This document shows, in pieces, positions 4,481 through 60,810 of a stretch of DNA of 64,000 bases. Every line of letters begins with the position of its first letter. Position 1 is the stretch's first letter. The translations under genes were made by a program, and so were the position numbers. The stretch comes from Nereocystis luetkeana (lineage: Eukaryota > Sar > Phaeophyceae > Laminariales > Laminariaceae), in NCBI GenBank assembly GCA_031213475.1, contig JARUPZ010000017.1:7642167-7706166 (forward strand), in the 5' to 3' direction. The notes under the pieces were generated by a model that had not been told where the DNA came from, ran no database searches, and was given only the letters and a program-made list of their open reading frames with translations.

Positions 4481-6920
4481 TGAAGCCGATTATCTGCTAG
4501 TTGCGTCGCCCTTGATATTGTGTACAAGAAGTGTTTGCTTGAAGGATCGCTAACCAGTTATAAGATATCTACACGTGGGAAGCTTAGACAAAGAAGGTGC
4601 CGAAATGATTTGGAGGTGGGTTTCGCATTAACGAGTGAGAACCCCTGGTGCACGTATCCGTTAATCAGGTCGCACGTGTATCTGTTGTAGATGAAAATTC
4701 GATTGTTTTTTAAAGGGGAGAGCTCTTCAAGCCAGGAACGGTCGACAATTTAAGTACTCCCTGGACTAAAGGGTGCCGATTCGTTGGGGACGGAATGCAG
4801 GTTTGGTGGAGGAGGTGGGGGGAGGGTAAGCTGTCATTGTAGCTGCTAGGGAAAATTCGGAAAGAGCCCTGTGTCTCTTTGAAGAGATGTGGTAGAGGTG
4901 GCACCGAAACGTCTGAGAAAATCACTGGTGATGTGTAAACAAACATCGGATTAGAAAGCGCTCTCATGGGGCCACAGTAAAGACAAGACTGAACCCATCG
5001 CCTATGAGGCGAGACGAAGATATTATTTGGGAAAAGAGGAGGGAGAAGGTTATTGACGTGGGCGTAGGCGGGAAAAAAATACGTACACGCTACAGGTATG
5101 TATGCGCACTTTGCGTGTTGCCGCACTAACAGACAGTCGTCCCTATGACTACATTCCTTGACATTTGTAGTGGCAAGCTACAGTAGATTCCCATCGCCTT
5201 CGTTGACGTCCCGAGCGAAGACAGTTGAAGATGCAACACCTAGAACAGCGAGGATGGACCTGCCTCTGAACGTGTATGCTCCCTGCATCCGCGAAAATTT
5301 TAAGCAAACGCATACATCTTGCGGCGATGCTTTGAGTTCGGGAACCCCCTTTCGAGTATCGATTGATTGTACTTCCAGAATGGTTCGCCGTTGTTGAGAA
5401 TCTGGCGATTCTTAGTCTGGCTAACTGGCCAGCACACCAGGTATTAACCACGAAAAGCAGAGTTCAGAACGAGCAGACGGCCATTACAATGGACCGTCCG
5501 GTACATCTGCTCGTGGCACTCGCTTTGCACGTTATCAGCCAAGAAGAAGCGTGTTGGCCAATCTTGATCGCTCGCCTTATATTCGACGATTGACCACATG
5601 CATATACTCCGTGAGTGGTTCTCCTCTATATACCACAACATTTTCTCCCCGCAATCGCAACTGCTGTTTTGCAGTCGCTTGATCCCATCTCTTTATCTCA
5701 TGTCACAACGGTCCAGCCTCAGCAGGCATCGTTCAAACAGGTTGTGAGCATCACACTACACAACAACTTGGTACTGAGTTTGCGACATATCTCTGCAACG
5801 GATTATCGCAGTTCAGGAAAGCCGTGGAACTCCCGTGAGAGATACTGTCAGCACGGACTCGACGGTACAACATGGACTAGTACAATTCACTAATCAGGGG
5901 CGTCGAGGGAATAACACAATTTTCACGCCGTTTCGCACAACCCATATATATACGTGTGAAGCTCTTGGACACGTGTGTTTGCAGCCCCTAGGTTGTGGTT
6001 CGAGCAGATGATGTTGCATGCAAGATCAATTGTCGTCACGGACGTTGTATTGGCCTTGCAGCGGAACTGTTCAATGCGAGGACCCTGACTGATGCTGTCG
6101 ATATAATAGTTACATGTCTAACTTCCGTAGGCCCATCAATGGTCGACCAAGGATCTGCCGCGGTTTCTGCCCGGCTTTTCATATAACAGAATAATTCCAA
6201 GGGTAGAACAACACGGGCGTAACCTTGGCCTTGACGACATACCGCCAACAGAGCATACGTAGTCAGAACTCACACTTCGCGAAACCACGTAAGAACCAAC
6301 AGCTTACATCGATACCTCACACTAACATCCTACATCAACAACGACGCCCCCAATACAGGCGCTTACAATGATACCTCATACCAACATCATACGTCATACA
6401 ACGACATCCCCAGTACATAGCCCACGTACACGCCGGTCCAAACACAAACGAACGGGTTTTCAAGGCTCGTTGTAACTCGGAGCGTAGTAGGCAAGCAGTT
6501 AGCTCCCTGAGTAAACGTATAGCACTCAGCATATCTTAGAATAGGTCACTCGCCGCTACATTTGTTCTGGCCCCGACGTAGAGAGCCCCAACCGTGACAG
6601 TGCTTAAAATAAAATCGAGGAATGCTCCGTTGATTTCTCGACGTTTCCTGACTCTGCTAGGCTCGGAACGCAGACGGCAACCTATTCCCCCTAGCGATTT
6701 ATCGCGTCTCCTCCGCCAGGGAGTAGCCAGGGAGTAGATATTGTACCATAACCGGCGTCTGAATGGACGTCAGCACTCACCACTCATACCCCAAGATAAT
6801 ACGCAGAAGTCCCACGCCATGCGGTTTGAACGGAAGTAAGTGTACCACACCACACAATTCCTTGGAATTTCTCTGTCGCACGGATAGAGGCCTTGAAGAC
6901 GCGCATAATCTCTACAATAG

Positions 6921-7351
6921 TTGACTAAACGGTATGCCAGAAACACCAAACATCTATCCGGCCACCACGGACAGTGGTGGTCACAAGCTTTCACGCGGGC
7001 AAGCACACTGACATCGCAAGACAACAATACGAAAAATACTGGGGACTCCACACGACCGAGATTCCCACGGACCCGTCGCAAGTCTCCGCAACCGTTTTTC
7101 AATCTATTGTGAATCCTTTTAAACCCAGCCGCAACACAGTTACCCCTAAACAACACATTACGACTACCGCCAGCTACGAGAACCCAACCATTGACGTGAT
7201 TAACAAGGGCCATGGAACCGGCAATCAAATAAAACTGTTGTTTTTTATGCCTCCTCGCTTGCGCGCAGCTATTTTAGTGTTTGATCACAACTTTTGCGGG
7301 GCAATGCTCATTGCTTCGTGGCACTATCGCCGCGCCGCTTCACACACATAA
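6921..7351 (+). pseudogene. Block protein delta-2, copy A
   Basis: A plus-strand frame here is conserved with 24,881-25,180 (copy B) and 58,760-59,015 (copy C). Shared positions include an AEQSRQQF-like helix in B and C, a KQxISTT stretch and a GNQIKL-like stretch. No domain is recognised. Conservation of one frame across three diverged copies argues that it once coded for protein. This copy is decayed. Confidence 0.4.
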
Positions 7352-9906
7352 ACCCAAACCTCGTGACTGTGCCTGAAGACAACTGATCACTGTCCTAATG
7401 TACGTACACATGCTCAAGCCGTCTCCATAGTTCTGCGCGTCGCCAATGCAGCCAATTCACTTTGCCGACAAAGGCCCACTACTCAAACGCTCACCAATTT
7501 TCGTGTATAGGGATGCCACTGGCTCGCTGAGGAGACCGATCAAACGAAACATCAGCCCATCGTAACGTTTCAACTTGTTGAATAATGGTGGTAACGTCGA
7601 TCACAATGCTAGCTGCTCAAGCCTCGGTGCTGCATAATTCTTCATCGGGTGCACCATGCTTTGTCGTTTGTTCTTTCGCCTTCCTCAACATCTCATACAA
7701 AGTAGCACCGAACGCTCGACGACACCCTACCTCCATACAAACATGACAAGATCGGGCAGATGCCTCTTTGGACCCTAATCACGGATGGTGAAACACCCAT
7801 ATACGCTACGCCGGAAAATACTTAAGATGACCACGGTATACTTGATATGAGACACACCACACAATGGTCCTTCGTAGAAGCGCGCACAACGAAGCCACAC
7901 GTTGCGCACAAACCCAAAACCGAGGCACACTCAGTAAGTTAGAGGGTGCCTCCGTCGCGTCGGTGTAAGAGCCTCTGCCTCTCGGCAACGACACATACCG
8001 TAACTGGTCTCGAGTGTGCCCGCAGTGCACACGGGAGACACCAACTACGACACATACTTCACATATCGACGAAAAGTGTCACCAATGGCGATACGTCAAA
8101 CCCGTCGCGCCCTCCCTCTCTCATTAATGATTGTGACGAAAACATTATATTCTCTACAGTCGTACTACTGTTTTCAAACATGATGTGCGACCAACGTTGC
8201 CTCACGATCCAACCTCGTTTAATGCAAGAAGAGGCTCTTCGTCGATCACGTCGTATCCGACAAACTATTTCAATATCAACGAGGAATCAAGCACACAAGC
8301 ACACGCTATGAAGATCCGCTGTGGACCTCATCTACGCCAACTAAAAGCCAAATAACAGAAAGTAAGCTTCGAAATCGCCTCCAATGACTTCTATTCTCCC
8401 CAATGCCAGTGGGCAGCACAAAACCGTACCAGTCCAAACTACTTGCCGGAAAACGCTTCATCGCAAGCAACATCGCCCTAGGAATCCGTACACGGCTGAA
8501 ATAGCTGTTCTGACTTGTTTGGTATTTTTACCCTCCCCATACAAAGCAGTGACCCCAGTAAAATGTCCTACCCCTCCCCTCCCCTGCCCTCCTCCAGCCC
8601 AGCGTGCATATATATTATGCTTCCACAAAATCTCCCAACCATGAACAGAAACAAACGTTAACCAAGAAATTAACTCCCCACGAGAATTTCACAGGACAAC
8701 CGCGCCATCTGCTTGAAATCTTTACAGGATTTCGAGGTGCTTTCTGATAAGTCGAGCAACACGTCGAAGTGCTCAACTGATTTCTCCAGTCACCGAAAAC
8801 TGGTTTTCAACATAAATATCATACGTAGCTGACGGTCCGCCCGCCGCCGGATCGAAGGTTTCTGATACGGTTTTGGATGGCACAGATTCCCGGTCAAATT
8901 CTGAGCAGTTTCGAATGGTGGACAATGTGTAAAAAGCCTCTGTCGTTCGCTTGTATGGCGTAATCAGACATACCGCTAGGCGAGCGACTCTCTCATAGGA
9001 CGCCCTTCCATTGTTCATAGTAAAAGAGCAAGATGACGTCGTTACCGTGGTCGTAAATACCGAAAGCGGAAAAGGAGCTCAGAACTTATTTCGATACGGC
9101 GGTAGCTAGGTGGACAAACTCGATCGACGTCGGGTGCAAGGTCAAAAATGTTTACTTACAGCTAGAGCCCTGCTGTTATTTTCTCCATTTCTACATAGGG
9201 ACATAGGACGACACATGACGCCACGGGGGTGGTTTAAAATTGATGGAAATACATGTCATTATATACGTAAAAGAATGAAAAGGCATGATATGGACGTCGG
9301 AGACGTGTCGTTCAGGTGGTGGATGTGCCTACGCGACCGCACATAAATGTTTTCTCAGCGAGTATTTGCGTCGGTCATAAGAGTATCCACCCGAAACAGA
9401 ATAAAACACGTATGTCCTTGCTTCCGTGAAGTATGTGACATGAATAATACCATGAATTAATCACGGGACCACGGCGAGATTTAGGTTGAGAACGTTACCG
9501 AATTTTATAGAACATATTCGGGTCTTGTTCCGCGTTCTACGAGGGGCAGTTTGCAGGGAACTACTCATATATCATCCTAGGAGTAAACACGTTGTGGCTC
9601 GTTATTATTTGCAGATGTTCATTAACGTGGCGACGACGAGAAATTGTCACACCGCTGATGAAAACCCTGATAGACACACACGCACCCCCCGCCTCCGATC
9701 ACCAATAAATCCCAGACTACGTGGAACAACCCCAACGGGGGGTTCTGACATGCAGCCCATCTCAGTATCCGTCATTATCCCGAAGAAGCCAGAGAAGAGC
9801 GGAAATATATCTTCGGACGAGAGTGATGCGGGTCTCAAGGAGAGGAGCAAGGACAAGGTATATCACAGCGTTGGGATGGCTACAGCCTCACACGCCTCAC
9901 ATAGTA

Positions 9907-10260
9907 TCAATGCCGTGTATCCACCCGGAACACAAACGACGGCACAAAAATGACGTATCCACCAAGTCTACAGGGTTTAAGCAAGTTATCATAGTTCATT
10001 TTCCTGGAACATGGATGATACTCGTAATAACACACCCGCACCAGATTCGTGATACTGTTATACCAGTACGGGTTTCCACTGTTGTTGTCGTCGTCGATGT
10101 ACTGTACCCATGCCCCGGCGACGGATCCAGCGTTGGGTTGGAATTGGGCTGTCCGTGCGATATTTGGATTCGCGCCGGGTGGCAGACCTTGATGGGAATG
10201 TTTGTAGTACCGGATCTCTTGTGAGATCGTGTGGCGCCTGGACATACGACATTGCCGCAA
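9907..10260 (-). pseudogene. Minus-strand WW-domain gene, block copy A
   Basis: On the minus strand the frame contains WVQYIDDD, then SGNPYWYNSITNL, the first two thirds of a WW domain (W...GxxYWYN..T). A possible splice donor follows directly, as in the WW genes at 31.7 and 51.5 kb, so the domain's last strand would lie in the next exon. Copy C has the same minus-strand arrangement at 59.49-59.6 kb, where a cleaner GTGAGC donor follows and TVWNVP lies downstream. The gene is decayed. Its role is unknown beyond likely binding of proline motifs. Confidence 0.5.
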
Positions 10261-10685: not shown

Positions 10686-11330
10686 ACGCTCTTCGGCCCG
10701 ATTGAGGTACACCCTTGACGGCTCGTTCCATATTGGCAATACTCGAGACGTGTGCACACACAGGGACGATCCTATCATATGACATGCCCCGACTAAAGCA
10801 GAAGTTACATCCAGAGTTTACATCATGCACGTGTGCTTTTTCAGGGGTCGATGCCCTGTTCTCTCTCACCAGCATCTGGCTCCGAACTGGTCGAGTCCGT
10901 CGCAGGTGCTGTCGACATGGTTTCCCTCTGGAAGCTCCCCCCCTTTAAACCTCGCCTTATGACCCAGAGACGGCACAGGAAGCGCGTAGCAACAATGGAG
11001 GCACCAGAGTGGAACGCATTAAAAAAATGTGTCGGCTCATCCTTTGGCAGGGAAACTTAACGATGGGGTTGCTGAGTGCCTGTGTCGCCATACGCTGGTA
11101 GAAAGCAGTGCCCATGTTCCGCAAACGTCGGCAACTCAGATACACAGCGTTTCCAGAACACGCGTGATACTAAGCGTTGTACCCAGTGGTTGGGTCTTAC
11201 GGGGGGGGGCATTGTGATTGCAACTGAAGTGGCAAAAACGTGCTGTCAATACGATATCTCCCATGATACAACTGACGAGCATCCCAGGTACTGAAATCTT
11301 ACAATGGACTACGACTACTACGGGGGATCA

Positions 11331-21461: not shown

Positions 21462-22724
21462 TATACATTAATATCATCGCGTGTACCTTACAGCTTAATT
21501 AACTTGTTGGAGGCTTCGTCTACCCTCAGCGATATTGTAAACAAGCCGTGCTTACACCTGGCGTCCCTTCTCCCCTCCGCTGCATGCTCTCGTTTGTATC
21601 GCCCAGAGGGTTGAGCATTTCCGCCTGCTTGTCGATACCATCTAAAAGTGTTGAGCATTCTCACCGCTTGCCGATTTCATCTCATAAAGTTGCTTACTCA
21701 CGCTCTCAAGCTTCCGTCAATTATTTATTTATGGGGGAAAAAACCACTACCACAAAATTTTAAAAGTGTACACTCGGGGAGATTCGGACCCACAAAGCCG
21801 TTATTTAGTAGGCCCTGCGACCACCTTGCAAGCCGCGGGGGACGTTGTTGTGTAAATGAGGTGGGTGTAACCTCCCTCGGGAACCTTTCAAGGTGCACGC
21901 GCATCGGTTATGTGTACCATACAAGCCATTGCGCTGAAAGAAGCTCTCGGCGACTATTCGAAGTACGGTACGAAGGTTTCCATTTTTCTGGCCGACGCTT
22001 AATTTTTTTCGCTGACTCAGCTCGTCAGTTCCCAACCTCCCCATTCTGATAGGATCTAGATGCAGTGTCCACCTTTTGTCCATACACACACAGCACATAG
22101 AGGGGGGTGCACGTAGCGGACTTGGAGTACATGCTGAACATCGACTCTTTGTGCCACTCCAGCGAGCAGCCTACGAAATTTTTGCAGCAGGTCTACTCCT
22201 GTTGTTGTCATACCACGAGTAATTTCCCCCTGCACCTTGGCTCGTGGAAGTCGGAACTTCGTCTGGTGGTAAGGATTCAGCTCCTTCATGTAGCCAACGT
22301 CCCGACCATGACTGTTCGCAAAAACAACTTGTATGTCTTATCGAGTTTACTCTTGCTTACAAGGATGTTGGTCAATATTTCGTTGGCTTGTGTGAGACAT
22401 CTGGAGCGTGTATTCCACAGGCACGCAACTGCGAAGTGCGCACAAGAGCGCACACAACAAGCCGCTGCGTGTAGGGACACTGTTTGTGCTGCCGCCACCT
22501 GTGTACCGGACCCCATCGATTTGTCATTCGTGAAGTGAGGTGATTACATCACTGAGTCGTTCTATGCAGTCACCCTTAGAAGAAAGAAGAAAACGCATAT
22601 TTTGCAGATCGAAAGCCAATCCGAATAACCGACCTCGAAGCGCTATTTATTCGAAACATACATAAAAAATAAACACTGAAACAGGCGAAATGTCCCGTCA
22701 ATCCCAAATAGTTTATCCAAACTG

Positions 22725-23158
22725 TACGCACACGATGCCTACGGTTGTAGCACGCGTAACGGCCTTGAGGTTCGGATGAGGTGATGAGTGTGTCGAGGCT
22801 TTGTATCTGTGAAGAGAGACGGCTGAGGAGGCACCGAAATGCCTGTGAAGGTCACTCGTGAACGAAAACATAAACATCGGTTGGAAAAAGCGCTCTTGTG
22901 CCCAATGTGGAGAGAAGACCAACATGAGAGAGCAAGAGGAGAAAAGACGAAGAGAAGAAAGGTGGGCAGGAGACAAGGGAAGTATTTATCGTGGGCGTGG
23001 GCCTGGTATGACCATCTGCACTGTACGTGCTGTTGTACTGGCCGACACTCCGTCCTATGATAACATTCCTTGGTGTGTACTTCGTATGGTGGCAAGCTTA
23101 AGTAGATTATTTGCACTTTTTTTGCCAATCTCCCGACAAAGAGGACTTGGGCATGCAA
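22725..23158 (-). pseudogene. Beta-segment protein, copy B
   Basis: The minus-strand frame is shared with A (5126-4840), C (56.76-56.42 kb) and D (near 35.92 kb). All four contain an IFTDxSVPPLPxLF-like string, and B and C continue ETKPRHTHH-like. Retention of the same string at four loci suggests past coding, although conserved non-coding sequence is possible. No domain is known. Confidence 0.35.
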
Positions 23159-24540
23159 CGTGCCAAACAGCGAGAAAGAAACTACTACCGCACTTGGCGT
23201 CTCGCCATATATTCCAACAGAATCAGCTAAAAGAGCTATATCAAGTGGAGACTTTGCGTTCAGAGAGTTATATTCGTCATCTATCTGCTAGATTTTGCAC
23301 TCGAATTGCTTGCCTTGTCGGGACGTTGGTATGTATGTCAACAACGGGGAAATGACCAGCACACCAAGTATTAAGCACAGCGTATAAGCTTCAGAACGGG
23401 CACTCAGTCAATACAATAGAATGCCGGGTGTATCCATCTGTACCGGGTACATGATACGAAGATAATCCGGGAACAGGTTTGCCCCATCATGATCGGTCAT
23501 CCTCGATAAGTACGACATTTGACCGCGATCGGTAGAGGCTTGGCCATTGGTATTTCACCATATATATATTATACCCGAATATTTGTTTCACGTCATCACA
23601 TGTATGTATGGTCGTTGCAGTCGCTTGATGTGACCTCTGTTTCTCGTGTCGAAGCGGCAAAGCCTCATCAAACCTTATTTCAAACAGGTTACGAGCAACG
23701 CGCTACATAACAACGTGGCAATAAGTTTGCGAACTATTCATGTAAATGAGTATCGCAGGTTGATACATCCAAGGAAATTTGGCTGGACACATGATCAGTA
23801 ACGACTCTGCGGCGAAATATCGACAGGGAATAATCCCATCAAGGCCACTCGGGAGGTACTACTTGTTCGACTATGTTTGATACAACCTACCAGGGTGTGT
23901 AGGTGTGGACCTCTTCGACATATGTTCGGCAGTCCTAACATGGTGGTGCAGGCAGATGTTTGATAAAATATTAATCCTGGTCTCGGAGGTGCCAATGACT
24001 CTGAGGCGAAACAACGGTTCAATGTGATGACCTAATGCTGCAATTGTACAAGTTTTATGTTTTATATTCTTGTGTCATACCCGCTTTGACCCAACGCCTG
24101 TTAGTGTTACTACCAAGCCGTTCATGTATAAGCTCGGTCGCAAAGGCTGTATCACACCGGAAATAAACAAAAAAGGACACGGCTTCGAGTACACAACCAG
24201 AAGAACACACGTAGGAAATTGTTACACCTCAGGAATCCTCACAGCAACCAAGAGAGTACAACGGTTCCTCATGTATATATACATAATACAACCCATGACG
24301 ACATGCCTATGACAAAACGAAAATTCACGTAGATCATATAACAAAGCAAGGGTGCTTCACGCTCCACTCTACCTTGCTAGTAGAACAAAGTTGGCTTCTT
24401 GAGTACAATATATAATACAGTAGATAACTTGTGTACAAGATATCACTTCCGGCTAAACTTCCTCGCCCCGACGTAGATACCCACAAATCTTGACGGTGGA
24501 AATAAATGCACAGAGACGTGTCCCGTTGGTTTAACGCCGG

Positions 24541-24870
24541 ATGTTGAGTCTGCAAGGCTCGGCAAACACACAGCAGGCTTTCGCTCCTGACGATTTGCTC
24601 ACGTCAGGCATGGAAATGGATGTTAGCGCTTCACCTGAAAACATATCCATAACCCAATATAGTTCACAAAAGCCCCCCGCCGTACGGTTTGGCGCACGGT
24701 GTACAACACGATACTATGATACCTTAAAAATCATCTGTAGCACGGATAGATGCTTTGGAGACGATAACTTCCTTCACGAAGGTTGGTCAAACGGCAGGCC
24801 AGAAGAATCAAGCACCTCTCCGGCTACCACGAAGAATAACGGTCGTGTGTATGGACGCGGGCTGAGATAG
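24541..24870 (+). pseudogene. Delta-1 block protein, copy B (longest frame)
   Basis: The 109-codon frame shares most residues with copy C (58,402-58,590 and beyond). Common strings are QAFAPD, MDVSAS, ENISI, QYSS, CTT, DTLK, ICSTD and WSNGRPE. Copy A keeps a more diverged version near 6.76-6.97 kb. The conserved frame is good evidence that this was a protein. The function is unknown; the product is polar and lacks a membrane segment. Confidence 0.45.
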
Positions 24871-27187
24871 CACATCGATATTGAGAGATATCAATTCGTA
24901 CATACTAGATATTTTACACGGCACAGGTTCGCACGGACCCATCGCCGAACAGTCTCGGGAACAGTTTCGCAAGCTATTATTGTCATTATGTTCAAAACCA
25001 GTCCCGAAACAGATGATCAGCACCACTCATTTCAACTCCCGCCAGTCGCACATGAGAACTACCCTCATTATCAACACTGGAGTGGTTAAGAAGGGCCGTG
25101 AAATCAGCAACCAAATACCGTAGGTGATCAAGATCATCCCTGACATGATAAGCGCCGCCGTTGTGGTGTTATATCACGATTATTAGCTGAAGGACGATGC
25201 TCAGCCCTTAACCGCACAATCGCCGCTGTGCTCCAACCACACCAACTGAACACCATGAAGCACGTTGTCACTTTCTGACTATACCTACACACGTCCACGC
25301 CGCCTCGACAGTGAGGAGCACATAAACTCCACCACAATCACTCCGCCAACGTTTACTCTTCCCCCGAACGAACGCTTCGGTCAGAACCCGTTCAGAGAAA
25401 TAGTCCACACGAAACATCAAGACATGGAAATATTACCGTTCAAGAAATGGCCGTGAGATCGATCAACAAGCGATCTTCTCAAGCCTGGGTGCTGTAAACA
25501 CGTCATCGGTTACACCGTGGCTTTTCTTCTAATTCCCCTCTTCTTGATGAATGTCCCGAACAAAGTATCATTGACAGGTCGTAAACGCATTCTATCCATA
25601 TAGATATGACACGCTCGTGCAATTGCCCCTTTTTAGCACAGGTAGTGAACTCCACCCATATGCGCCACGCCGGCGGCACTCAACAAAACCACAGCACTCT
25701 CTACAGGACACCACACTAACGGGGCCTCATCTAAAGGCTGACGACAAAGACACACGCTGCGCACAGACGAGAAACCTAGGGAGAAGGAGTATGTCAGAGG
25801 GGGGCTCCATCGCGTGCGCGAAATAGTGTAAATCTCTCAGAAAACTCTCATGCAAGAACTGTCCTTGGGGGGACCTTGCAACGCACACGTCACGCGCCAA
25901 CTTCAACCTCTCACCCGAACGTCGACGAAACAAACGTCGCATCAATGGCTATACACTACGTGAAACTCCCGCGCCTCGCCTCTCTAAAGATCTTGACGAA
26001 CTATAATATTTACTACTGTCTTATAATTTTATACAACATGAAGTGCAACGAACGTTGCTGCAAGAATTTCGCCTCGTCGTGTCAAGCTAGAGACTCCTCG
26101 TCGTTCTCGTCGCATCCGACAAAATATTTCAACTGCACACAACAAGCAAGCACCCTAGCACACTCCATGAAGATCCGCTGTTGACCATATCTATGCCATG
26201 CATATACGAGCGAAAGAAACCGAAAGCGTCATATTGCGGTCCATCAATGTGTTTGCGCCTCCCCCCATCGTCCACGGGAAACAGAAGCCCTACAGGTCAA
26301 AACGGTTGTCGAAATATCCTTCCTCCTAGGAAGAGTCGCCCTGGAATTCTGAACAATACTCAAATGTTTGGTCTAAAACGTGTGCCCAATTCGGCCAGCC
26401 CAAATAAAGTGGCTAGCTCCATACAATATCCCACCCCACTCCTGCCCTTCTCCAACCGAGCGTACGTATGCTTCCACAAAGCCTCCTCACCACGAACATA
26501 AACGCTTGTCTCAAAATTCCTCTTCTAGATGGTTGCACAGGGCGACCGCGTCGACTGTCCTAAAACATTTATTTTAGATTCAACGCGTTTCTTTACATCC
26601 AGCAACGCGTCGGAGTCTTCAACTAGTTTCCTCTAGTCATCAGAAACTTGTTTTGGATCTGGCATACCTTGCTGAGGGTCCGTCCGTCATCGGATGAGCC
26701 CTCTATCATGTGATCGTGGATGCCACTGTGCTGACGCTTGGCATACCTTGCCGTTCTTCTCCTTAAGATCTTCGTCGCTCTCTTGCTCCCCTCCGAAGGA
26801 AATAGCTGATTCTCATGTTTCCCCTCTTCTCCAGGTGGGCGACGGATGCTGAAATGGGCTGCATGTTAACACCCATCGCTGGGGGTGTACCACGTAGTCT
26901 GGGGTTTGTAGATAAGTGGAGGGGGGGGGGCGCGTGGCGTCTACTGCGCTTACCATCAGCGGTCGGGTAGATGCTCGAGTTCGCTACGCTACGGACCATT
27001 TCCGGTCAATAAAAAGCGCCAAACGTGTTGACGCCATTGATGACCATGTTTACTTCTCTGCCAATGGCCATGAGTATAACGCGGAACAACAACAGACCCG
27101 CTGATTGCCCTTATGATTCGGTTGCGTTTCAACACAATTTAAGCTCGTGGTCTCGTGATGTTTACATGTCATTTTCCATGTCACATT

Positions 27188-27524
27188 GTCCCGGTGATTC
27201 AAGTGGTTAACCTCGAATTCTAATTGTTTGAGTCCTGGGTTCGAGCCCCAGGTGGGTTGGACATTGACTTTATTTGCAAAAATAAAAGTAAAAAAGGATC
27301 CAATTGTTGAGAGCGCCTTGCAGCGTGGGTAGGCACAATTCGATGCGAGTCGACGAGGAAAGAAAAAGATGAAATCTTCTCGCGATAAAAACGAAGGCAC
27401 GTACCTTAGCGGGAAGGGGGGAGAAGAGCCTGCTATGTGACCCCGAATCTGAGTTACGAGTTGGAATTAGAGAAAGAAGAAGATGTGCGAAAATAATGAA
27501 TGTGATGAGCAAAAATAAAAAAAT
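27188..27524 (+). mobile_element. tRNA-derived SINE
   Basis: The head has an A-box-like TTCAAGTGGTTAACC and a B-box GGGTTCGAGCCCC inside a perfect T-arm stem, both as in RNA polymerase III promoters of tRNAs. A 250-base body follows, then an A-rich tail. A close copy lies at 39,998-40,352 and a reversed 3' part at 40,440-40,600. Confidence 0.8.
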
Positions 27525-35849: not shown

Positions 35850-36120
35850 ACCTCGACGGTCATGACCTGAAGGAATAATGCCTTTTGAGGCTCTGTTTTC
35901 TATGAGAAGAGTTGCAGAGGCGGCACCGAAGTGTCTGTGAAGATCACTTGTGATGAAGAAAGAAGATGGTTTGAAATTGGCGCTTAATTGGCCCTTATAG
36001 AAGGAATCTTGATCTCAGAGATCAAGAGGAGAAGAGGAAAGGAGAAGAAGAGAGGAAAGGAAAGGAATGCAAAGAAGAGGAAATGGAAGAGAGGAGATGA
36101 GGAAAGGAGAAGAAGAGAGT
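35850..36120. repeat. Block fragment D (beta segment only)
   Basis: GGCACCGAAGTGTCTGTGAA and flanking sequence match the beta segments at 4.89, 22.83 and 56.44 kb. Neighbouring block segments are not found, so this is a lone fragment. A purine-rich GGAGAAGAAGAG tract follows. Confidence 0.55.
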
Positions 36121-36199
36121 GAGCAAGGTGGGGCATGCCATCACCTGATCACGAGACAATGCCCATGCTACGGGCAGGTTTATTCTACAGCAGCCCGTC

Positions 36200-37140
36200 A
36201 AGCTTCCGTGAACCGTTCCTAGCAACGTCTTTGCAACGTTTTATGTAGCGTACTCGTAACGTTCTATGGAAAGTTATCTGCTACCTATTATTTTGGTAGA
36301 CTAGCTACCCTGCGTTACGATCAGTATGATAGATAAGTTGAATACAGTGCGTCGGCAAGAAAGAAGAAACTCAAGTTTCGCCGCATATTATCGTATTTCT
36401 CCGCATTTTTTATCATAAGATACTCTTAGTAACCTCGTGTGAAGTGACTGCACATCACAATAGATATGGATGTCAACGTCCATATATAATGTTATATGCT
36501 GACATCATTTCTGTCCGCAGGCGGAACACGTTTCGAGAACAACCCACCAGCTACTCTGCCGCGCTTAGCCTGGCACCCCGAGGACGCCCAGCCCTCTCCA
36601 CTGTCTGCTGTTTGTGCACGTGTTTCTTCTAGTGTGTGTTTGTCTGTTTATGTGTGCACAGCAGTAGTAGTGTGACTCCTCTGTGTGTGCCGCTGTGAAA
36701 TGTTAACCGGCCGTATCTCGCTCAAAAAACAAAGTTGGCACAAAACATATGATCAACATCCATGGATGCAGGCCCAAATCGCCCGAATCCGTTGAGTTTT
36801 CGGGATCGTATGGTGCAATTGTGTGCAACTAAAACGAAACATGTTTCGCCCCTCATGTAAGATTTTCTGTGTGTGTTTTCTTTGCCAAAACTCGACAAAA
36901 AAAGAAGAAAACAAATACCCGTGGCATGAACCTGCTCCACGAGATATAAAAAAAAAAAAAAAATGGTCTGAAAAAAAAAGGACCCCCACCTTCGTTCATA
37001 TAGAACCCATATACGTTATTATTACCCAAACATACACTGATTTGCGAATATCTCGACCAATAAATATAAACTGATCGATACGACGGGTTACTCCTGCCTG
37101 AAACAGAGAATTTAAACGGTCCATTCCACGACACCAAGGT
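36200..37140. other. No gene seen
   Basis: Short frames only. An A-rich tract near 36,950 leaves long but meaningless frames. Repeated AACGT words lie near 36,208-36,260. Confidence 0.4.
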
Positions 37141-44796: not shown

Positions 44797-44797
44797 A

Positions 44798-45169: not shown

Positions 45170-45170
45170 C

Positions 45171-45210
<40 letters not shown>

Positions 45211-45211
45211 A

Positions 45212-45247
<36 letters not shown>

Positions 45248-50319: not shown

Positions 50320-50664
50320 GTGATCGGTACCAAAGACTTATTTATATGGAAATACTGGTTTCTTCCATGTACTCACCTGGTACTTATCAGACACTACTAC
50401 TGCTGCTGCTGGATCCCACATCTTGACACGCAAACGCCCGACGATACTGGAGAAAGAAATCGCACATCATTGATAACGAATGAAAACATTTTCAAGCTCT
50501 CATTTGGCCTCTTCATTGTGCACCGCTTGCACACCATACCCCCCGTGGCACACAGGGCAGACTCCGAGCGGCTTACCTCCAAACACAGAGCAATCGAATT
50601 TCACCAAATGGCGCGTTTCAACCGGCAACCGCTTTGGGTCAAGCATCAAGATCGATTCGGCCGG
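50320..50664 (+). CDS. Candidate exon with first half of a WW domain
   Basis: The frame ends in PLWVKHQDRFGRFYW, the W...D..GRxYW half of a WW domain, directly at a GTGAGA splice donor. The other half would lie in a later exon, not located. Upstream the frame is cysteine-rich and of uncertain start. It may be an upstream exon of the WW gene at 51.5 kb or a separate family member. Confidence 0.35.
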
Positions 50665-51502
50665 TTCTATTGGTGAGACCTACGTAACCAGAAGCGTGTG
50701 CGCACATCACGACCAACACAAAATGCTCATTGTTGTGCTACGGTACCTAATCAAAAACAGACCATCGCAGGTTAAAGGCTACCGTTTTTTTTAAGAGGAG
50801 GTGGGATATATCGATGCTGGCCGTGATATATCGTGCGTTTATATGAATAATAGGTGTTGGGTTTTTCGTTTTTCCGAGCTCAAACAATACCAAAATATAT
50901 GAATCGTTTTTTGAAGGGTTTTTCACCAACTGTTAACTGGCAATTTTTGAGGACTGACGGTAGTCATGATACGTTTTCGACTAGCATATACATACTCTGT
51001 GATGTGAAAGTACATGCAGAACAGTCTTGTATATATCGAAATCGAACTGTGAGCGCATGCTACGCTCCGACATCTCTGGGGGTCCTTTTTTTTTAAGGGC
51101 CTCCAAATCGCCATACGCTGGCGTGAAAAACATTGGATGATTTGCTCGACGGACAATCCCAAAACCCAAGTACAGGTAGGTATATTGCGAACCCCACGGC
51201 AACGAAAACACAGTATCAAAATGGTTTCGGGTCGAGGGCTCAAATCCGTCAACGTTTGTTAGATCTTAGCAAGCGCTACCTCAATCGTGGCACGCGGCTA
51301 CGGAGATCGAACAAAACAAGAACAATCGGAGCCGGGAAATAACTGTGTGCTAACCTACCGTTTGTCGGTATGTTTGTCTGTCTGTCGGTCGCGTAGGTTT
51401 GCTTAGGTTGGCGCTACTTTAATTCTCAACAATGTACTATTCGTCCTCCCCTATCGAAATAAGTGTTCCATCAAGTGGGATAGGAAGACGGACACTCTGG
51501 GC

Positions 51503-54237
51503 ATGACCAATCGTAGGTGCTCCAGACGGTTACCTCATGCTGCGACCTTCAAAGCTAATACCTGTCAACATTCCAATTTCACGTTATCATTGACGCAGCC
51601 CCACAATAAATCTACTCGTGAAAACACCATTCACCAAAAGGACCGACCACGATGTGACTTAACTTACTTCATCCCGCGAACTTGGGATGATTCCAGGCGC
51701 AATATCGTTACCTCCCAGGAAATATGGGACAGCGGAACACTTGTCGGGGGGGCGGGGGTCTGCACCTGCCCACAACCGTTTATTATAGCAGACTTAAACC
51801 GGCATCCATCAGGACTGCCAGACGGCGTTTATTCGCCGGTCAATCAGCCGGTCCGTGCGCACTGTAGTGTAGGACGGCCGGTGCTTATGGGCTTGCCGCT
51901 CCTGCTCGGAGTGGGTGGGCATCCGAACATCGTCCAACCCATCGGTTCGTTAGCAAGCTGGGAGGTGATTTCGGAGGCATGGGAGTTTCACTTCGACAAC
52001 GCCACCAGAAAGAAATACTGGTACAATATTCTCACAAAGAAGGTGAGTTGTTGGACGATGCGCGCGCTGAAGGACAGCGCCTAGTCTATGTCCAAAATGT
52101 ATATGTCGTCTGTTGACTGCAAGAGAATGAACTCGAGATTTGCCAACTGTTCGTAGCACGAGAGGAGCAGAGGTGCGTGTTGCGGCGTGTAAAGCCTTTT
52201 CGAGTTGTGATATATCACTCCCCTGCACCGGTACCCAATGATCTTCCCCTCTCGCCGGGCGTCCTGTATCACCCCAGGTAGGACGCTGAGAAAAACAACG
52301 AGGTGGAACCTGCTAAACGCTCCCATGTGAATGCTTAAAGTATATCAAATGGTACTGCAACAATATTGCGTAGCTCGTTACTCTTTCGATTTCGTGCCCG
52401 TCGGTCATTACTATGTTCTTGACCAACCGTAGGGTGGAATGCGACCTCGAGCCCTGGTCGCAAGACAGTAGTTGGGATTCATTAGCGAGCAAGGCCACCA
52501 GTCACAGGCTTCGGGTCGCACGGATATTGTCCGGGGTGACGACATTCTTGGCAATCACAAGGAATGGCTTAGTTCGACGGAACACTCTATCAATACATGC
52601 AGTCAGCAGATTTTGTTAGCTTGAATTCAGACGTTTGAACGATATTGCCCTCGCAATCACGCAAGGGCCCGCGCCCGGTTATGGAGGCTCTTTATACGGT
52701 CGCTCGAGACGTTGAACAATATTGCCCTCGTAATCACGCAAGGGCCCGTGCCCGGTAATGAACGTTCTCTATAAGGTTCCTCACCGACCGAAATTGATAT
52801 GGTGTCCTGACGCCGGCAAGGGTACAATTAACCACGACTTAGGCTAACTGGTTTGACTAGAAGAAGTGGTAGATCAACTATAAAGGGGCAACCGCTGGAG
52901 ATCGCTGTAGTATCCGTTTTGGCTTGACGTGCACATATATATATATATATATATATTTATTGATCTGCGTCAAAAGCTTGTCCATCGGAATTCACGTCGC
53001 GTATCGTATAGGTCAGGTGTGTGGGGGGGGGGCGATACAGGTTCAGGTTTAGAGCTGCGATGATCATTCATAGTTGGATAAGATGTTTGCCAGTCCCTGT
53101 GCGCGGGGATATCACTGTAGACAGTTGATTGTACAGTAGCAAGGGATAGTCTTACCAAACCTAAAAGGAGTTTTAAGACTGTGAAAGTAGGGCCCTGTCG
53201 GTTCTTAATCTAATGTTCTACGTACACATACAGAAAATGAGAGTTCGGCGGTTCTAGTGTAATGTGGGGGCATTATACTTTTATTATTATAGAGTTTAGC
53301 CCGAATTCGAGGCTCCCACGTCACCTCAAGGTATAACGCGGAATTCAACAGGGACACATCTGTGAATACGACTGCTGCACGCATTTCGTGCGTGTGCCTA
53401 CGTACGTATTATGCCCAACAATACATAGCATACTCGTGAGCGGCTAGGGTTTGTAGAGCGCCTAGACACGAGGGGCGCCGTGGTGGTTCATAAACGTGTT
53501 TCTCGAAAGTGACACCTCGATCGCACGACGCTTCTGTGCCGTTCATGATGATCCCGGTATTTGACGGCAACGGGGATGCCGCTAATCATTGATCGCCGTT
53601 GTGCACTAGAATGACGCGCCCCCCCCCGGTTCCGCCCACCCCCATCCTTTCGATCCGCCCCCAACCCAGAGCACGTGGGATAACCCCAAGGACAAGACCA
53701 AGAAGCGACCCCCGCCGCCACCGACCACACCACCCCCTCCGATGTCTGAAACGAGGGAACAGGAGCAGTGGTATAAAGTTGAGGACGGCAAAGGAGGGAA
53801 AATTTGGATGAACGAGGAAACGGGAGAGCAACAGAAAGGCGTACCCGACTGCCGTAAGAAGTACAGGTAGATACAAGGGGCGAGTATGGAGACTCGAAGT
53901 AGCCAAGACCCGAAAGAGGCTACAAATATGGGAATTGTACCTGAAGGAGCGTGTACGTATTTGGAGGGGTAAGGTTTTGTAAAGACGCGGTATAACTGAC
54001 GGTGCCCCTCGCCTCAGGAAATACCCACGTCACACTCTATACTTGCAACAACATAAATGCAGGCCGATGTACGGCAGACGTTACCCTTTTCGGGGCCGAC
54101 TGAACTATCGTCACTGGGATCCTCAATTTCAAAGCTATCGTAAATACCATGCAATTCTTATTATGGCGTTGTTATCCGGTATGTGCGTGGGCCGTGGGAT
54201 TATGGATCATGGGGCGCATCTTGCAAGGTTCGTCTAA
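51503..54237 (+). CDS. WW-domain protein, three exons, apparently intact
   Basis: Exons 51,503-52,042, 53,670-53,866 and 54,018-54,237 join in matching phases (0, then 2) with GTGAGT/CCCAG and GTAGAT/CTCAG sites, giving about 318 residues. A canonical WW domain spans the first intron: AWEFHFDNATRKKYWYN, then KK/STWDNP, with 22 residues between the two tryptophans. A polyproline linker (RPPPPPTTPPPP) follows, then a second WW-like unit (EQWYKVEDGKGGKIW) lacking its second tryptophan. The C-terminus has an arginine-rich part, HWDP and a hydrophobic AILIMALLSGMCVG stretch. Decayed relatives lie at 1, 4.3 and 31.7 kb. The frame is open upstream to 51,407, so the start is uncertain. The polyproline could bind its own WW domain. 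Not a family I can name. Confidence 0.6.
52630..52783 (+). repeat. 77-base direct repeat in intron 1
   Basis: Two tandem units start GACGTT, share AATCACGCAAGGGCCCG and end with a TCTxTAxxxGxTC-like tail. They are about 85% identical by eye. Confidence 0.8.
52930..52960. repeat. TA dinucleotide run
   Basis: About 13 TA units inside the first intron of the WW gene. Confidence 0.9.
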
Positions 54238-54616
54238 CCGGTTGCCGGATCCCCTGATGTGACACGTTGAAACAAACCGAAGTGACTGATTGACGTAGGT
54301 GCGTTTTTTCTCGTGCACGAGTCAGAAACATTAGCGCACGCGATTGCGCATCAGTTCGCAAGTATGTGCCTCCTATACGAAACGTCGATGTTGAAGTGAG
54401 GCACAGAGCTCCACAAGCCAGGAAGGGTCGAAACTGTAGTCCTCCTTCTGTATAGTAAACGAGGACGCCGATTTGTTGGGGGGTTTTTTTTCGACTTTAG
54501 TCGGAGGGGTGGGGGGGGGGCGGCAAATTTTTCGTTTGAACTAGGAGGCATACGTTGTTCGACATATATATCTCTGGTTTCTCTAGGAGCGGTACCAACG
54601 TAATCCTCGATGACTA

Positions 54617-55016
54617 TTAATAGTGCCCTTGCCACTTTCGAAGATCAGTCACGATGAATGGTTGTAAGGATTTTTGTAGGCGTGATCGCAGAGTAGCCAT
54701 ACGTGTCGGTGGTAATGTCAACACGATTCGCGAAAAATGTATTGTGAAAGAAAACGCGACTGATTCGCCGTTTATACTTGCGGATGTCGTTGCTGCGGCG
54801 GATGAGGTTTGCGCCTCTGTTTGTGGGTTATGGGTCAAACAACGAAGGACAGTGTACCATTCAGCATGTTTCGAGCAATATCGCATGGTCCCATCTGTCT
54901 GTTTTGCTCGTTGTGAAACCGTTTTCGACCGATGCAGGCTCAGCCTTTGTGCAAGCGAAACAAATTCACGAACATCGGCGTTATTGCCGGTGACGTCCAC
55001 TCAGATTCAACGTTAG
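54617..55016. other. Overlapping long frames, strand unresolved
   Basis: A plus frame of 120 codons (54,654-55,016; RVGGNVNTIREKC, LADVVAAADEVC) and a minus frame of 127 codons (55,000-54,617; SLAQRLSLHRSKTVSQ) overlap almost completely, both from ATG. Only one, if either, is likely real. It is absent from copy A at the equivalent place. Confidence 0.25.
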
Positions 55017-55509
55017 AGTTGCAGGAGTAAACGGAGAGTGTCGTGGGTGTTTGTTAGCGAGCTGTCCTCACGGGACTGTGATGTCCGCACGTGATTGTGA
55101 CGACGATGTGCTAGTCTAAAGTCTTCACCTACAGTCTAAAGATCAACTTAAGTAGTTCGTGTGACTTGTGAGGATATTAGTGTTTAAAACGCAACTCAGT
55201 AGTCCGCCTGGTGTTCGTGTTGTGAGAGTATGTAGGGCGGCTTGACTCGGCGCGAAACTGTCGCGACAGGCTGATAAGACGCCTGTACTGAAATACATTA
55301 ATTTAGAGTATAATTGTCTTCCACCCTAACCTGAATTCAGAAATACGTATCTCCTCCATGATCTAGTGATGCATAGCCGCCACCATTCGCTAGAAGCTAT
55401 GCATGGTGTTGAAGAGTAGGGTTATCCGGGCTAAACGTTGAAGAACACGAGGGGGGAACATTAGTGTGAACGATGCGGGTGTTACCTTCCTCGGAGGATT
55501 TTGCAAGGC

Positions 55510-56243
55510 TCACACACAGCGGCTGGGTTTACCATACAATCCATTGTGCTTAAGAAAGCTCCCGGCGACTACTCGAAGTACGGTACGAAGGCTTCCTCTT
55601 CTCTGGCCATGCAGGCTTTCGCTGACTTTGCTCTTCAATGTCCAACCGCCCCAGTATGATAGGATCCAAGATACATTGAACACCTTTTGTCCATACATAC
55701 CCAGCACATAGGGGTGTGTGTACGTGTCGGACTTGGAGTACAGTCTGAACATCGACTGTTTGAGCCCCTCCAGCAAGCAGCCTACGAAATATTTGCAGGA
55801 GGTCTCTCCTGTTCTCATCCCACGAGTCATTTCCTCCTGCAACATAGCTCGTGGAAGTCGGACCTTCGTCTTGTCGTAAGGATTCAGCTCCTTTATGTAG
55901 CCAACGTCCGGACCATGACTGTTCACGACAACATCCTGTACGTCTTAACGAATTTACTCTGCTTACTTAACGAATTTACTCTGCTTACACGGATGTTGGT
56001 CAATAGTTTGTCGGTTTGTGGGAGACATCCGGAGCGTGTATTCCACTGGCACGCAACTGCCAAGTACGCACAAGAGAGCACACAAGCCACTGCGGGTGGG
56101 GACACTGTTGGTATTCCCGCCGCCGGCGTATCGGACTCCATCTGGTTGTCTTGGTATATCGAGGTGATTACACCACACAGTCGTTCTACGCATTCGCTTT
56201 TTAAAAAACTCTGAAAACGCATTATTTGCAGATCGACGGCCAA
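55510..56243 (-). pseudogene. Alpha-segment protein, copy C
   Basis: A minus-strand frame of 138 codons (55,926-55,510) contains SCKYFVGCLLEGLKQSMF, YSKSDTYTHPYVL and MYGQKVF. Copy B keeps NFVGCSLEWHKESMFSMYSK and YGQKVD in the same frame. An upstream frame (56,243-55,923) is likewise shared. Frame conservation supports past coding. A 22-base direct duplication (CTTAACGAATTTACTCTGCT-type) is present only in copy C near 55,955. Unknown family. Confidence 0.45.
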
Positions 56244-56770
56244 TCAATCCGTGATACCGACCCTTGAAGCGCATTAGAAACTTACAAAAACATAGAAACA
56301 GGTAAAGCTCCCGTCAATCGGAAATTCTCTGTCAAAACTTTACGTACACTATCACTATGGTTGTAGCATGGATAATGGTCTTGAGAGTATGCTAGGGTGA
56401 TGTGTGTGTCGAGGCTTTGTCTCTGAGAAGAGGGATGGCAGAGGTAGCACCGAAATCCCTATAAAGATCAATCGTGAACGATACAATCAAAAACGGTTTG
56501 AAAAGGTGCGCCCATATGGCCAATCAATGTGGAGAGAAGACTGATATAAGAGAGCAATAGGAGACGAGACGAAGAGAAGAAACGTGGGCAGGAGACGAGG
56601 GAAGTAGTTATCGTGGGCGTGGGCCTGACATGATCATCTGCACTGTATGTGCTGTTGTACTGGCCGACAGTCTGTCCTATGAAAACAATCCTTGGTATGT
56701 ACTTTGTATGGTGGCAAGCTTCAGTAGATGCCCCGCACTATTATTGCCGATCTCTCGACAAAGAGTCACC

Positions 56771-56999
56771 CCACGGTAGGGATTGCATTGTTTGGGCCAA
56801 AGGTTCCTGACCAATTGAGTTCCTTACGTGAGGATCAACCAGTTAGGAAGAAAAACATTAGAATATATTCGTGATAGGGCTAGCACATACAAGTGCTGGG
56901 TGGGTGGCACGAACCAATTTCTTGCAAGTACTGTATCCGGTGAGATATTGAGCTCCTAATGGGAGGGGCTCAGCATCGTCTGGGTCACCCCTACTGTGG
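56771..56999 (+). mobile_element. Short inverted-repeat insertion in block copy C
   Basis: CCACGGTAGGGAT and ATCCCTAC...-type ends (CCCCTACTGTGG at the right) bound 229 bases absent from copy B, where CAAAGAG continues directly to the matching CATGCAACGTG. CAAAG-like words flank both sides as a possible duplication. A non-autonomous DNA element, younger than the block copies. Confidence 0.5.
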
Positions 57000-57459
57000 A
57001 ATGGCTCCAAAGGGGAGTTGAACATGCAATGTGTCGAACAGCGAAAGGGAAATAACTACCGCACTTGGTGTCCACCCATTTATGCTCACATATTCAGCTA
57101 ATAGCTTTATTTTGCGGCGAGACTTTGCGTTCGTAGACTTCTATTCGTCATCTATCTATCTGCTACCTTTTTTTATTTAAGTTGCTTGCTTTGTCCGGAA
57201 ATTGGTATTTCAACAACGGGGGAATAAACCAGCACACCACGTACTAGCCACGAACTAATTGTAGACTGCAGAAAGGGCCCGCGGTCACTACACCAATTGA
57301 ACGTCGGGTGTATTCACCTGTAGCGCGGTCATGGTACGAAGATATTGTGGCAATGGGTTCGCCCCGTTATGGTCGCTAAATATTTATTCGACGTTCTACA
57401 GCGATCGGTACATACTCGGTCATTGATATTTCACCATATACCCAAATATTGTTTTGACG

Positions 57460-57700
57460 TCATCGCATGTATGTGTGGGTGTTGCAGTCGCCTGATGTCA
57501 CCCCTGCATCTCTTGTCGAAGCGGCAAAGCCTCGACAAACATTATTCCAACAGTTTACGAGCATCGCACCACATAACAAAGCCACTGGATTTGCGAACTA
57601 TACATGTAAATATATGAGTACCGCAGGTTGGTATATCCAAGTAGTTTTAATTGGACATATGATCGGTATCGACTCTGCGGCGAAATATCGCCAGTGAACG
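57460..57700 (+). pseudogene. Gamma-segment protein, copy C
   Basis: The plus frame reads VLQSPDVTPASLVEAAKPRQ then TLFQQF. Copies A (5.66 kb) and B (23.6 kb) show LQSLD and QTLFQT-like or QASFKQ-like equivalents in the same frame. Decayed; no domain known. Confidence 0.4.
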
Positions 57701-59489
57701 ATCATATCAAGGGCATTCAGGAGGGACTACTATCCTTACTCTGTTTGATACAATCTATGTTCGTGTGAACCTCTTCGACATGTGTTTCTGCAGTCGTCCC
57801 CAGATTGTTGTCCGGGCAGATGTTTGATGACATACTAATAATTCTCAACTCGGAGGTGCCAATGACCGTGCGGCGACACGGTCCAATGCGATGACCTGAT
57901 GGTGCAAATGTACGAGTTGCATGTTATTTATCCTTACGCCATACACGTTTCGACGCAAGGCCTGTCGGGGTGACTTCCAAGCAGTTCATGTCAAATCTTG
58001 GTCGCAACGATTGTACCACAGCACCGAAAACAACAAAACAGACATGAGCTTCAAGAACACCAGCAGAAAAACAGGCGTAGGAAATGTGACACCTCACGAA
58101 ACCTGATAACAACGAAGAGACTACGACGGCACCCCATGTATACACAACCTACAACGGCACGCACTTGACAAAACGCACATTGACGTTGGTCATGATACAA
58201 ACTAAGGGTACATCAAGCTCCACTCTATCTTGCTATTAGAGCACAAAGTTGACTTCTTGAGCACAATATATAATACAGTAGTTAGCTTGTGTACAAGATA
58301 TCACTTCCGGCTAAACTTCCTCGCCCCAACGTAGATGCCCCCAAATCTTGACGGTGGTAATTCACGCACGGAGAAACGCCCCGTTGGTTTAACGCCGGAC
58401 GTTGAGTTTGCAAGGCTCGGAAAACACACGGCAGGCTTTTGCTCCTGACCATCTGCTCGCGTCAGGCACGGGAATGGATGTTAGCGCTTCATCTGAAAAC
58501 ATCTCCATACCCCAATATAGTTCGCGAAAGCCTCCCGCCTTACTGTTTGGCCGGCGTTGTACCACACCATACAGTGATACCTTGAAATAAATCTGTAGCA
58601 CGGATGGACGCATTGCAGACGAGCATATCTTCCACAAAAGTTGGTCAAACGGTAGGCCAGAAGCATTAAGTCCTTCTCTGGCTACCACAAAGATTAACGG
58701 TCATTTGTATGCACGCCGGCTAAGACAGAACACCGATATTGAGATATATCAATACGGAAACACTAGAGATTCTAGACGTCAAAATTTTCAACGGACCCTT
58801 CGCTGAACAGTCCCGCCAACAGTTTCACAAACTTTTGTTAACCTGTTTTTAAACCAGTAGGGAAACAGGTTATCAGCACAACCCATTTCAACTGCCGCCA
58901 GCCGAACACAATAACTAATCTCGTACCCGAGGGCCGAGAAATCGGCAACAAAATAAAGCTGGTGATCAAGATCCTTGATGAGGGCAGCCTTCGCTTTGCG
59001 GTGTTAGATTTCGAATAGAGGAAGAACGATGCCTAATCCCTGACGTCACAATCACCGCCGTGCTCCAAACAGACCAACTCTACACTCCTGGCTGTGCCTT
59101 TAAACACATAGTAACCTTTTTGTCTTTCCCGGCCTTTTTCCACGTGCCGGTTGACGAACGCAGTCACCAAATCATCCTGCTATGATCAGTGTATAGTTTA
59201 AAGGGCGTTCTATAAGAGAGTTGCCAGCCTAGTGGCATCTTTGATACCGCCATGCCAACGATCACCAGAGGCGGTTCAAGCGAAACGATCGGTCCGAAGC
59301 TGCCTTCGAATAGTCTGGGAATATCATCAACGTCTCCTATCCACCCGAAATACTAACGACGGCACAAATGTGTCGCTCGCACGAGGTCTACCGGGTTTCC
59401 ACGAGTGATCATAGTCTTGTTTCCCGGAACATTCCAGACAGTAATGGCCGGTCAAGCCTGAGTTATGCAGACACACCCCGAGCTCACCA

Positions 59490-59735
59490 GATTTGTTATC
59501 CTGTTATGTCAGTACGGGTTTCCACTGTTGTTGTCGTCGATGTACTGTACCCATAACCCGGTGATCGATCCAGTATTTGGGTGGAATCGCGCTGTCCGTG
59601 CGACGTTCGGATCCGCACGGGTCGACAGACCTTGCAGAGAAGGTTTCCACTACCTACCGAGTTTCTTCTGATAATATATCTTGTGGCGCCTGGATGTAGC
59701 ACAATATGGCAAGAGCACAGCAGGAGGGCGTTCAC
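59490..59735 (-). pseudogene. Minus-strand WW-domain gene, block copy C
   Basis: The minus strand encodes WVQYIDDNNSGNPY, then ITNL directly at a GTGAGC donor. TVWNVP lies about 60 bases further on, consistent with a WW domain split by a short intron. It aligns with 9,907-10,260. The intron position in the WW domain matches the plus-strand WW genes, so they probably share ancestry. Decayed. Confidence 0.45.
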
Positions 59736-59935
59736 GATATGTGTGCTCAGTGTAATTCGCTATTGGGGCGATGTGAGGGATACGCTTCACAGCGCACCGC
59801 TTAGCAGCGTGTTTGTGGTTTAACGGGACGAAATCGATTTGTGATGTATTTGGCACCGTCCAACCTAGCGTATTTCGGAGTGGATACATCGTTTTCCCCA
59901 GTGTTGTTGTTGTTCTCACATTAACTCACCATAAA

Positions 59936-60163
59936 ATGCAGTTCGTGGTCGCAGGACAGGCTCCAATAATACCTCTGGAGTGGAAGAAACACCTCGGTAG
60001 TGAAACAGAGGCAAAACACAAAACAAGCATACGCACTCCACCACTACTAGTGACTGCGGACACCAGGGAAGCAAAAGGGAGACTATTAATAGCAGACAAA
60101 AGCCTGAAAAAGAAGATGAAGCGAAACAAAAAACAAAACAAAACGAACAACAGAAGCAGGTAG
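59936..60163 (+). CDS. Possible small basic protein, 75 residues
   Basis: An ATG-to-stop frame reads MQFVVAGQAPIIPLEWKK, then TREAKGRLLIADKSLKKK and a lysine/asparagine-rich tail. The end abuts a GTAGGT that could be a donor. The segment is absent from block copy A, so it may be an insertion. The basic tail suggests nucleic-acid binding or a nuclear signal; no family is recognised. Confidence 0.35.
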   Translation: MQFVVAGQAPIIPLEWKKHLGSETEAKHKTSIRTPPLLVTADTREAKGRLLIADKSLKKKMKRNKKQNKTNNRSR

Positions 60164-60810
60164 GTAGGAAAACAAAAAATGTAAGATTTGGTGAGTATCC
60201 GTCGCTGTGAATGTAACAACAAACAGGACCACATGCTAAAAACAAATCAAAAGGCAACTTTGGCGCTCTTTTGATAGGCATATATTCATGAACAATATCG
60301 ACCGAAATCATTTGAACGTCCGCCACAACAAATAATTGTCACCCACAGATTTCTGGTTTTGATACTACGGCACCATTACATCGGTCCAAGCGGCAACACG
60401 CGGAGCCAGATGTAAAGAAGGACTACACGTCCTTCAGTTGTGTTCAGGGATGCTACCGACGATCCGCTGCATATGGGCAATACGCGACAAGTACAAGTGT
60501 GTAGACGATCATCTCAAAGCCCGACTATACCGGCGGTCACATGTAGAGCGTACACCACGCACACGTGCACGTATAGTAGTCGACGTGCTTCATGCTCTCA
60601 CCAGCATCTATCTGGCTCCGAACAGGTCGTGGCCCTAAACCCGCGGGCCCATCACGGGTGCTGTTGACATGGTTTCTCTTTGAACGCTGCCTATTATACA
60701 GGATACCTCTCGTTCGAACCTTGTCCGGCGACCCAGGTACAGCACGGGAAACGAACGGCAGCAACGGAGACACCGGAGAAGACCGTAAGTAATAACGGTG
60801 TGGTTCGAGG

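Follow-up and report, generated by a model that had tools for sequence, protein, structure and literature searches.

A repeated multi-kilobase block in Nereocystis luetkeana is very probably the non-coding spacer of a local array of small WW-domain genes

The DNA under study was a window of 64,000 nucleotides from Nereocystis luetkeana (contig JARUPZ010000017.1, here C17, positions 7642167-7706166), which was compared with itself, with 172 kb of upstream DNA added to give the array context, and with the genome (465 Mb in 1987 contigs). Identity between diverged copies of the repeated sequence peaked at short sites, three of which, upstream of the spacer, were found to be the exons of one gene. 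One intact gene, C, lay wholly within the window at 50608-53870 (+), with GT-AG introns and no internal stop. Its exon a (50608..50673, +) reads MARFNRQPLWVKHQDRFGRFYW, the final codon being split by the GT donor; exon b (51697..52042, +) ends in YWYNILTKK, followed by the donor GTGAGT; and exon c (53670..53870, +) supplies the second half of a WW domain, a proline-rich linker, a WW-like module and the stop. Copy A, for which an intact three-exon model was also obtained, starts ~3.0 kb upstream of the window and enters it with the 3′ end of exon c (1..43, +; TAG stop at 41-43).

In 6 of the 12 gene copies examined (A, U6, U1, U2, U3, and C), all three exons were open and flanked by GT or GC donors and AG acceptors, giving complete models. 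Copies U4, U5, and D were broken or degenerate, two outlying copies were modelled in part, and a copy at 7.431 Mb was covered in part. The gene encodes 195 to 213 amino acids with one clear WW domain, two weaker WW-like modules and a proline-rich linker. Exon a opens with an ATG, and its last residues, GRFYW, abut a GT donor; exon b extends as far as KYWYNTITKE, where the donor is GC or GT; and exon c begins with STWKDP, continues through the linker and a WW-like module, and ends in CRKKYR and a stop. A splice donor in place of this stop was considered and dropped, as the outlying copies stop close to the same place.

One intron splits the first module, and the intron between exons b and c splits the middle WW domain. 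In copy A, exon b alone scored 27.5 bits against the WW profile, and exons b and c spliced in silico scored 45.5 bits, covering profile positions 4-31 of 31. The middle module exceeded the curated PF00397 cut-off of 26.9 in A (45.5), in C (38), and in the database protein P0002 (47.5 bits), and it carries the WW pattern W...YW.N..T...W..P. In the Pfam profile search, the first and third modules fell below the PF00397 cut-off; one WW stretch was found in A and in C, and a second stretch in P0002 appeared only at a loose limit. The array protein thus resembles PF00397 proteins in its middle module, whereas its other two modules are WW-like by eye, apart from that weak second stretch. Exon c of C alone gave weak, sub-threshold matches to SH3_4 (13.9 bits) and GW (13.2 bits) and no WW match. 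A structure model of P0002 showed three strands at residues 67-89 with a pLDDT of 63-86 in blocks of ten; it was poor outside the middle domain, with a whole-model mean of 49.2. No catalytic domain was found in the protein.

Database records bore on the predicted splicing. P0002, a homologous record of 173 amino acids from a contig of 1767 bases, continues through exons a, b, and c in a single frame. It shares 65 identical residues with P0007; the stretch spans precisely the interval between the predicted a/b and b/c junctions, and P0007 diverges after the latter. With P0003 it shares 40 identical residues, starting exactly at exon c (STWDDP). Such limits are the pattern expected from splicing, and P0002 would appear to derive from a transcript and P0007 and P0003 from unspliced DNA.

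Constraint on the protein was observed between copies. Seven pairs among A, U1, C, and the two outlying copies had dN/dS values of 0.29 to 0.47, and in none of these pairs did any of the 500 bootstraps reach or exceed 1 (saturated-dS replicates were entered as 0); for U1 and the 7.875-Mb copy the ratio was 0.517/1.515, and comparisons of C with either outlying copy were saturated. Exons were 0.69-0.88 identical to those of A, introns 0.58-0.70, and the spacer 0.62-0.72; in U1, exon b (0.69) was no better conserved than the spacer (0.72). In the outlying copies, at 7.875 and 7.910 Mb, similarity to the array was limited to exons b and c, interspersed repeats, and one inverted 125-bp match to intron sequence, and no extended stretch of intron or spacer aligned. 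Not every outlying copy has lost intron similarity, since the 7.431-Mb copy matched through exon b and the b-c intron at 60%. As a scan of the whole unit for codon periodicity gave no excess, the case for the gene rests on homology, splicing, and dN/dS.

A truncated paralogue in inverted orientation was found beyond the spacer in all four examined units in which that end was located (A, U1, U4, and C). These four copies, the only ones in the examined sequence, are designated A′, U1′, U4′, and C′, and each lies at the far end of its spacer. Exon b′ of A′ (10042..10236, −) scored 74.7 bits with the family exon-b profile, which had been trained in part on its U1 homologue, and 8.9 bits (E 2.2) with Pfam WW. 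Exon a′ of A′ (10869..10935, approximate ends, −) no longer has an intact frame, because of a 16-base gap in its alignment with U1′ and U4′. In C′, exon b′ (59512..59649, −) adjoins an in-frame stop, and exon a′ (approximately 60600..60700, −), placed by alignment and translation, contains in-frame stops and gave no match with the exon-a profile. Exon c was without a profile match of at least 8 bits in all four primed copies. The position shared by the four suggests that the ancestral unit probably already comprised gene, spacer, and inverted truncated copy.

The array extends over ~480 kb of C17 and holds at least 16 copies of the gene, so that the three copies of the original prediction were too few. 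Exon b as the query gave 12 genome matches (all 25 candidates scored) and exon c gave 13 (150 of 1443 candidates scored), all at C17:7.431-7.913 Mb; within the candidates scored, 25 of 25 exon matches were therefore paralogues at one locus (C17:7.43-7.91 Mb). One of the exon-b matches is a truncated inverted paralogue; the remaining matches merged by place to 15 copies, and copy D brought the count to 16. Copy D (31707..32233, +) is degenerate, with family profile scores of 23.7, 17.3, and 14.7 bits, an exon b-like part at 31710-31880 and exon c-like pieces in two frames at 32088-32233. Outside the 16 counted, an exon-c-like stretch on the + strand near C17 7.870 Mb (15.5 and 20.1 bits) is perhaps another diverged gene copy. 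Recent tandem copies comprised three at ~99% identity with a period of ~12.45 kb and a pair at 97-99% with a period of 14 kb, while older copies were ~60-70% identical. Orientation changes at ~7.60 Mb, gene copies on its left running opposite to those on its right (a copy at 7.875 Mb is the one exception), and intact and decayed copies stand side by side, the primed copies being truncated. A satellite-like array repeating every 426 bases, with identity of up to 99.6%, was also noted at C17 ~7.559-7.562 Mb (window-relative −83032 to −79844).

Within the window, the original prediction had described a multi-segment block in three copies, at ~4.7, 21.85, and 54.4 kb, that differ by internal losses and insertions. 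Self-comparison of the window confirmed three related blocks in one direction (~4.3-11.1, 21.8-27.2, and 54-61 kb), and the losses and insertions were seen in the alignments, along with local inversions. The spacers themselves, to which no strand was assigned, were delimited as copy A at 4285..9900 (non-coding, and 62-72% identical to other units where aligned), copy B at 21837..27186, and copy C at 53979..59500, which carries insertions relative to A, for example at 54520-56410. In copy B, gene exons were sought with the family profiles and none was detected. Blocks B and C were the closest pair, at 78% identity between B 21837-23143 and C 55453-56765 and 75% between B 23137-25253 and C 57008-59085, whereas ~30-40% of aligned sites differed between A and either B or C (A 4869-8883 matched B 22799-26726 at 60%). 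Further segments of A aligned with C at 4286-4826 (C 53979-54520), 5223-7381 (C 57016-59106), 9901-10431 (C 59321-59888), and 10450-11032 (C 60187-60801), and A 9433-9871 matched B 27186-26734 in reverse orientation. E-values of the block alignments ranged from 1e-29 to 0. The boundaries proposed for the block did not hold, as the duplicated unit in the recent duplicates exceeds it, at ~12.5 and 14 kb, and includes the upstream gene.

Several insertions were observed in and around the spacers. An LTR-retroelement-like insertion in the copy A spacer (189..4270, no strand assigned) is bounded by direct repeats at 189-607 and 3852-4270 that are 94% identical; it is shared with U6 and absent from the aligned units U1, U4, U5, and C. 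Its 348-amino-acid open frame (964-2007) holds 30-base tandem repeats at 1402-1764 and had no Pfam match. The right edge of the copy B spacer adjoins a tRNA-derived SINE (27190..27524, +), which is outside the block and has a high genome copy number. This SINE, of ~335 bp, occurs again at 40000-40345 and gave 1927 first-look candidates, of which the 40 scored were 92-100% identical. The only tRNA call in the window, a tRNA-Ser at 40000-40075, was taken as the head of this SINE, and a SINE-related inverted pair at 40202-40594 matches its own reverse complement at ~78%. A foldback element at 34319-35067 matches its own reverse complement at 67%, and related DNA is inserted in block C at 60807-61063. 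No clear target-site duplications were seen by eye for the LTR-like element, the SINE, or the foldback insertion. A dispersed repeat, corresponding to query positions 933-1129 of window segment 21850-25253, lies on many contigs (40 of 96 candidates scored). The sequence at 35887..36207 (no strand assigned), which had been read as a fragment of the block, is a member of this repeat, which is also found in the spacers. A long TAG trinucleotide array of ~310 units at 44343-45283 opens spurious ORFs on both strands.

The block had been taken to contain frames conserved on both strands. In the tblastx comparison of B and C, all six frames were about equal (e.g., 64-69% over ~200 codons at 24.38-24.98 kb), and 61 stops interrupted a B frame of 1621 codons. 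The count of codon-periodic windows was 46; 20 local shuffles averaged 48.4. On these three grounds (equal frames, stop density, and periodicity), the block was rejected as coding DNA, and the protein frames originally named are not genes. The window contains 211 stop-free frames of at least 85 amino acids, of which 84 (104-214 amino acids) were searched against Pfam at E 0.01 with no convincing domain; the single weak matches, one ORF each, to Pentapeptide_4 (E 0.0028) and Circovir2_Orf4 (E 0.0062) were taken as chance. Among five further frames, 51407-52081 matched WW at 19.5 bits, under the cut-off because the frame holds only part of the domain. Rfam gave no match in the window at gathering scores.

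The block is most probably (about 0.88) a non-coding intergenic spacer from an array of WW genes in tandem and inverted copies, carried along by their duplication. Of the two alternatives originally offered, an old segmental duplication of a gene cluster was supported, with the correction that the genes lie at the block edges and the block itself is spacer. The other, an undescribed mobile or virus-like element, considered here as three insertions of a large element that is either non-autonomous or undescribed, now appears highly improbable. Several similar multi-kilobase copies with internal losses and differing insertions are what such an element might leave; it would, however, be expected at scattered places in the genome, and the block segments searched were confined to C17:7.52-7.70 Mb. 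Segment 5223-8883 gave 15 genome matches (9 of 9 candidates scored), all at 7.52-7.67 Mb; segment 9480-11109 gave six (6 of 6 scored), all at 7.52-7.70 Mb; and segment 21850-25253, outside the dispersed repeat, matched only 7.53-7.70 Mb (40 of 96 scored). The copies are moreover tandem or inverted with fixed periods, their ends differ, and the absence of a hallmark transposase, polymerase, or capsid noted in the original prediction held at E 0.01 in the 84 ORFs searched with Pfam. An assembly artefact, in the form of uncollapsed haplotypes or misjoined repeats, is scarcely more probable. The ~99% identity of some copies would fit it, but most aligned copy pairs are 20-40% divergent and contain different insertions, a state that duplicated haplotypes cannot give rise to. 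Only the copies at 97-99% could be affected.

Somewhat less improbable, though still unlikely, is a reading in which the spacer forms a long gene, or is transcribed as a conserved non-coding RNA, with short exons at ~5.64-5.71, 6.87-6.93, and 7.9-8.3 kb. Local identity peaks in some copies have exon-like AG...GT flanks, and some windows show a synonymous excess. The highest such score (z 6.2) was at 5007-5066, which overlaps purine-rich DNA of the dispersed repeat and was taken, without proof, as a composition effect. Periodic windows were not above the shuffles, and the six frames were nearly equal. In A, U1, C, and also the 7.875- and 7.910-Mb copies, a stop codon closes the protein before the spacer begins, and the last two keep exons b and c and not the spacer (10 kb of each examined). 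Extra exons within the spacer were accordingly unsupported overall by periodicity, the outlying copies, and the synonymous-excess scan.

Under the preferred reading of the block as duplicated spacer, the ancestral unit was probably a small three-exon WW gene followed by a spacer of at most ~10 kb and then an inverted truncated gene copy. This unit would have spread locally by repeated tandem and inverted duplication, through unequal exchange or replication-based duplication, with the spacer copied together with the gene and old copies decaying. The spacers would later have been altered by the LTR-like element, SINEs, foldback-related DNA, and the dispersed repeat, which would explain why a single block with internal losses and insertions was perceived. 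WW modules bind proline-rich or phosphorylated partners, and the domain content suggests that the product is most likely a small adaptor, whose own proline-rich linker may act as a ligand within or between molecules.

Birth-and-death tandem gene arrays are known, for example, from plant resistance-gene and olfactory-receptor clusters. The C17 array resembles them in its local tandem and inverted copies of all ages, its 97-99% identical duplicates, and its intact copies beside broken ones; it differs in that the family encodes a small protein and shows no overall excess of amino acid changes (dN/dS < 0.5). WW exons also occur in local groups on C4, C7, C23, C11, C6, and C28 (150 of 206 candidates scored), but these clusters are absent among the listed matches to the C17 exon-b and exon-c queries. 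The region C4:0.43-1.65 Mb is another local array, with WW exons of equal or similar score, and a local array of light-harvesting exons was noted at C31:3.29-4.02 Mb, with 68 light-harvesting protein matches in the genome. No named protein matching the C17 family was found; apart from the array itself, the matches were to unnamed protein records (in one search, among the 7984 candidates sharing most words), and no title in the open-licence literature pointed to a paper on it. A local gene array is of a known kind, and the WW family itself seems to be undescribed.

It is conceivable, at rather long odds, that these genes form an undescribed, fast-turning family of small WW adaptors kept together in a single inverted array and repeatedly amplified there under selection for copy number or for recognition of partners, as in mating or defence, with the inverted paralogue perhaps exerting antisense or palindromic control. 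The present reading removes a candidate "undescribed large element" by accounting for it as duplicated spacer. With short exons and a WW domain split by an intron, the family may escape gene prediction, and arrays of this sort offer a way to follow gene clusters as they expand, invert, and decay.
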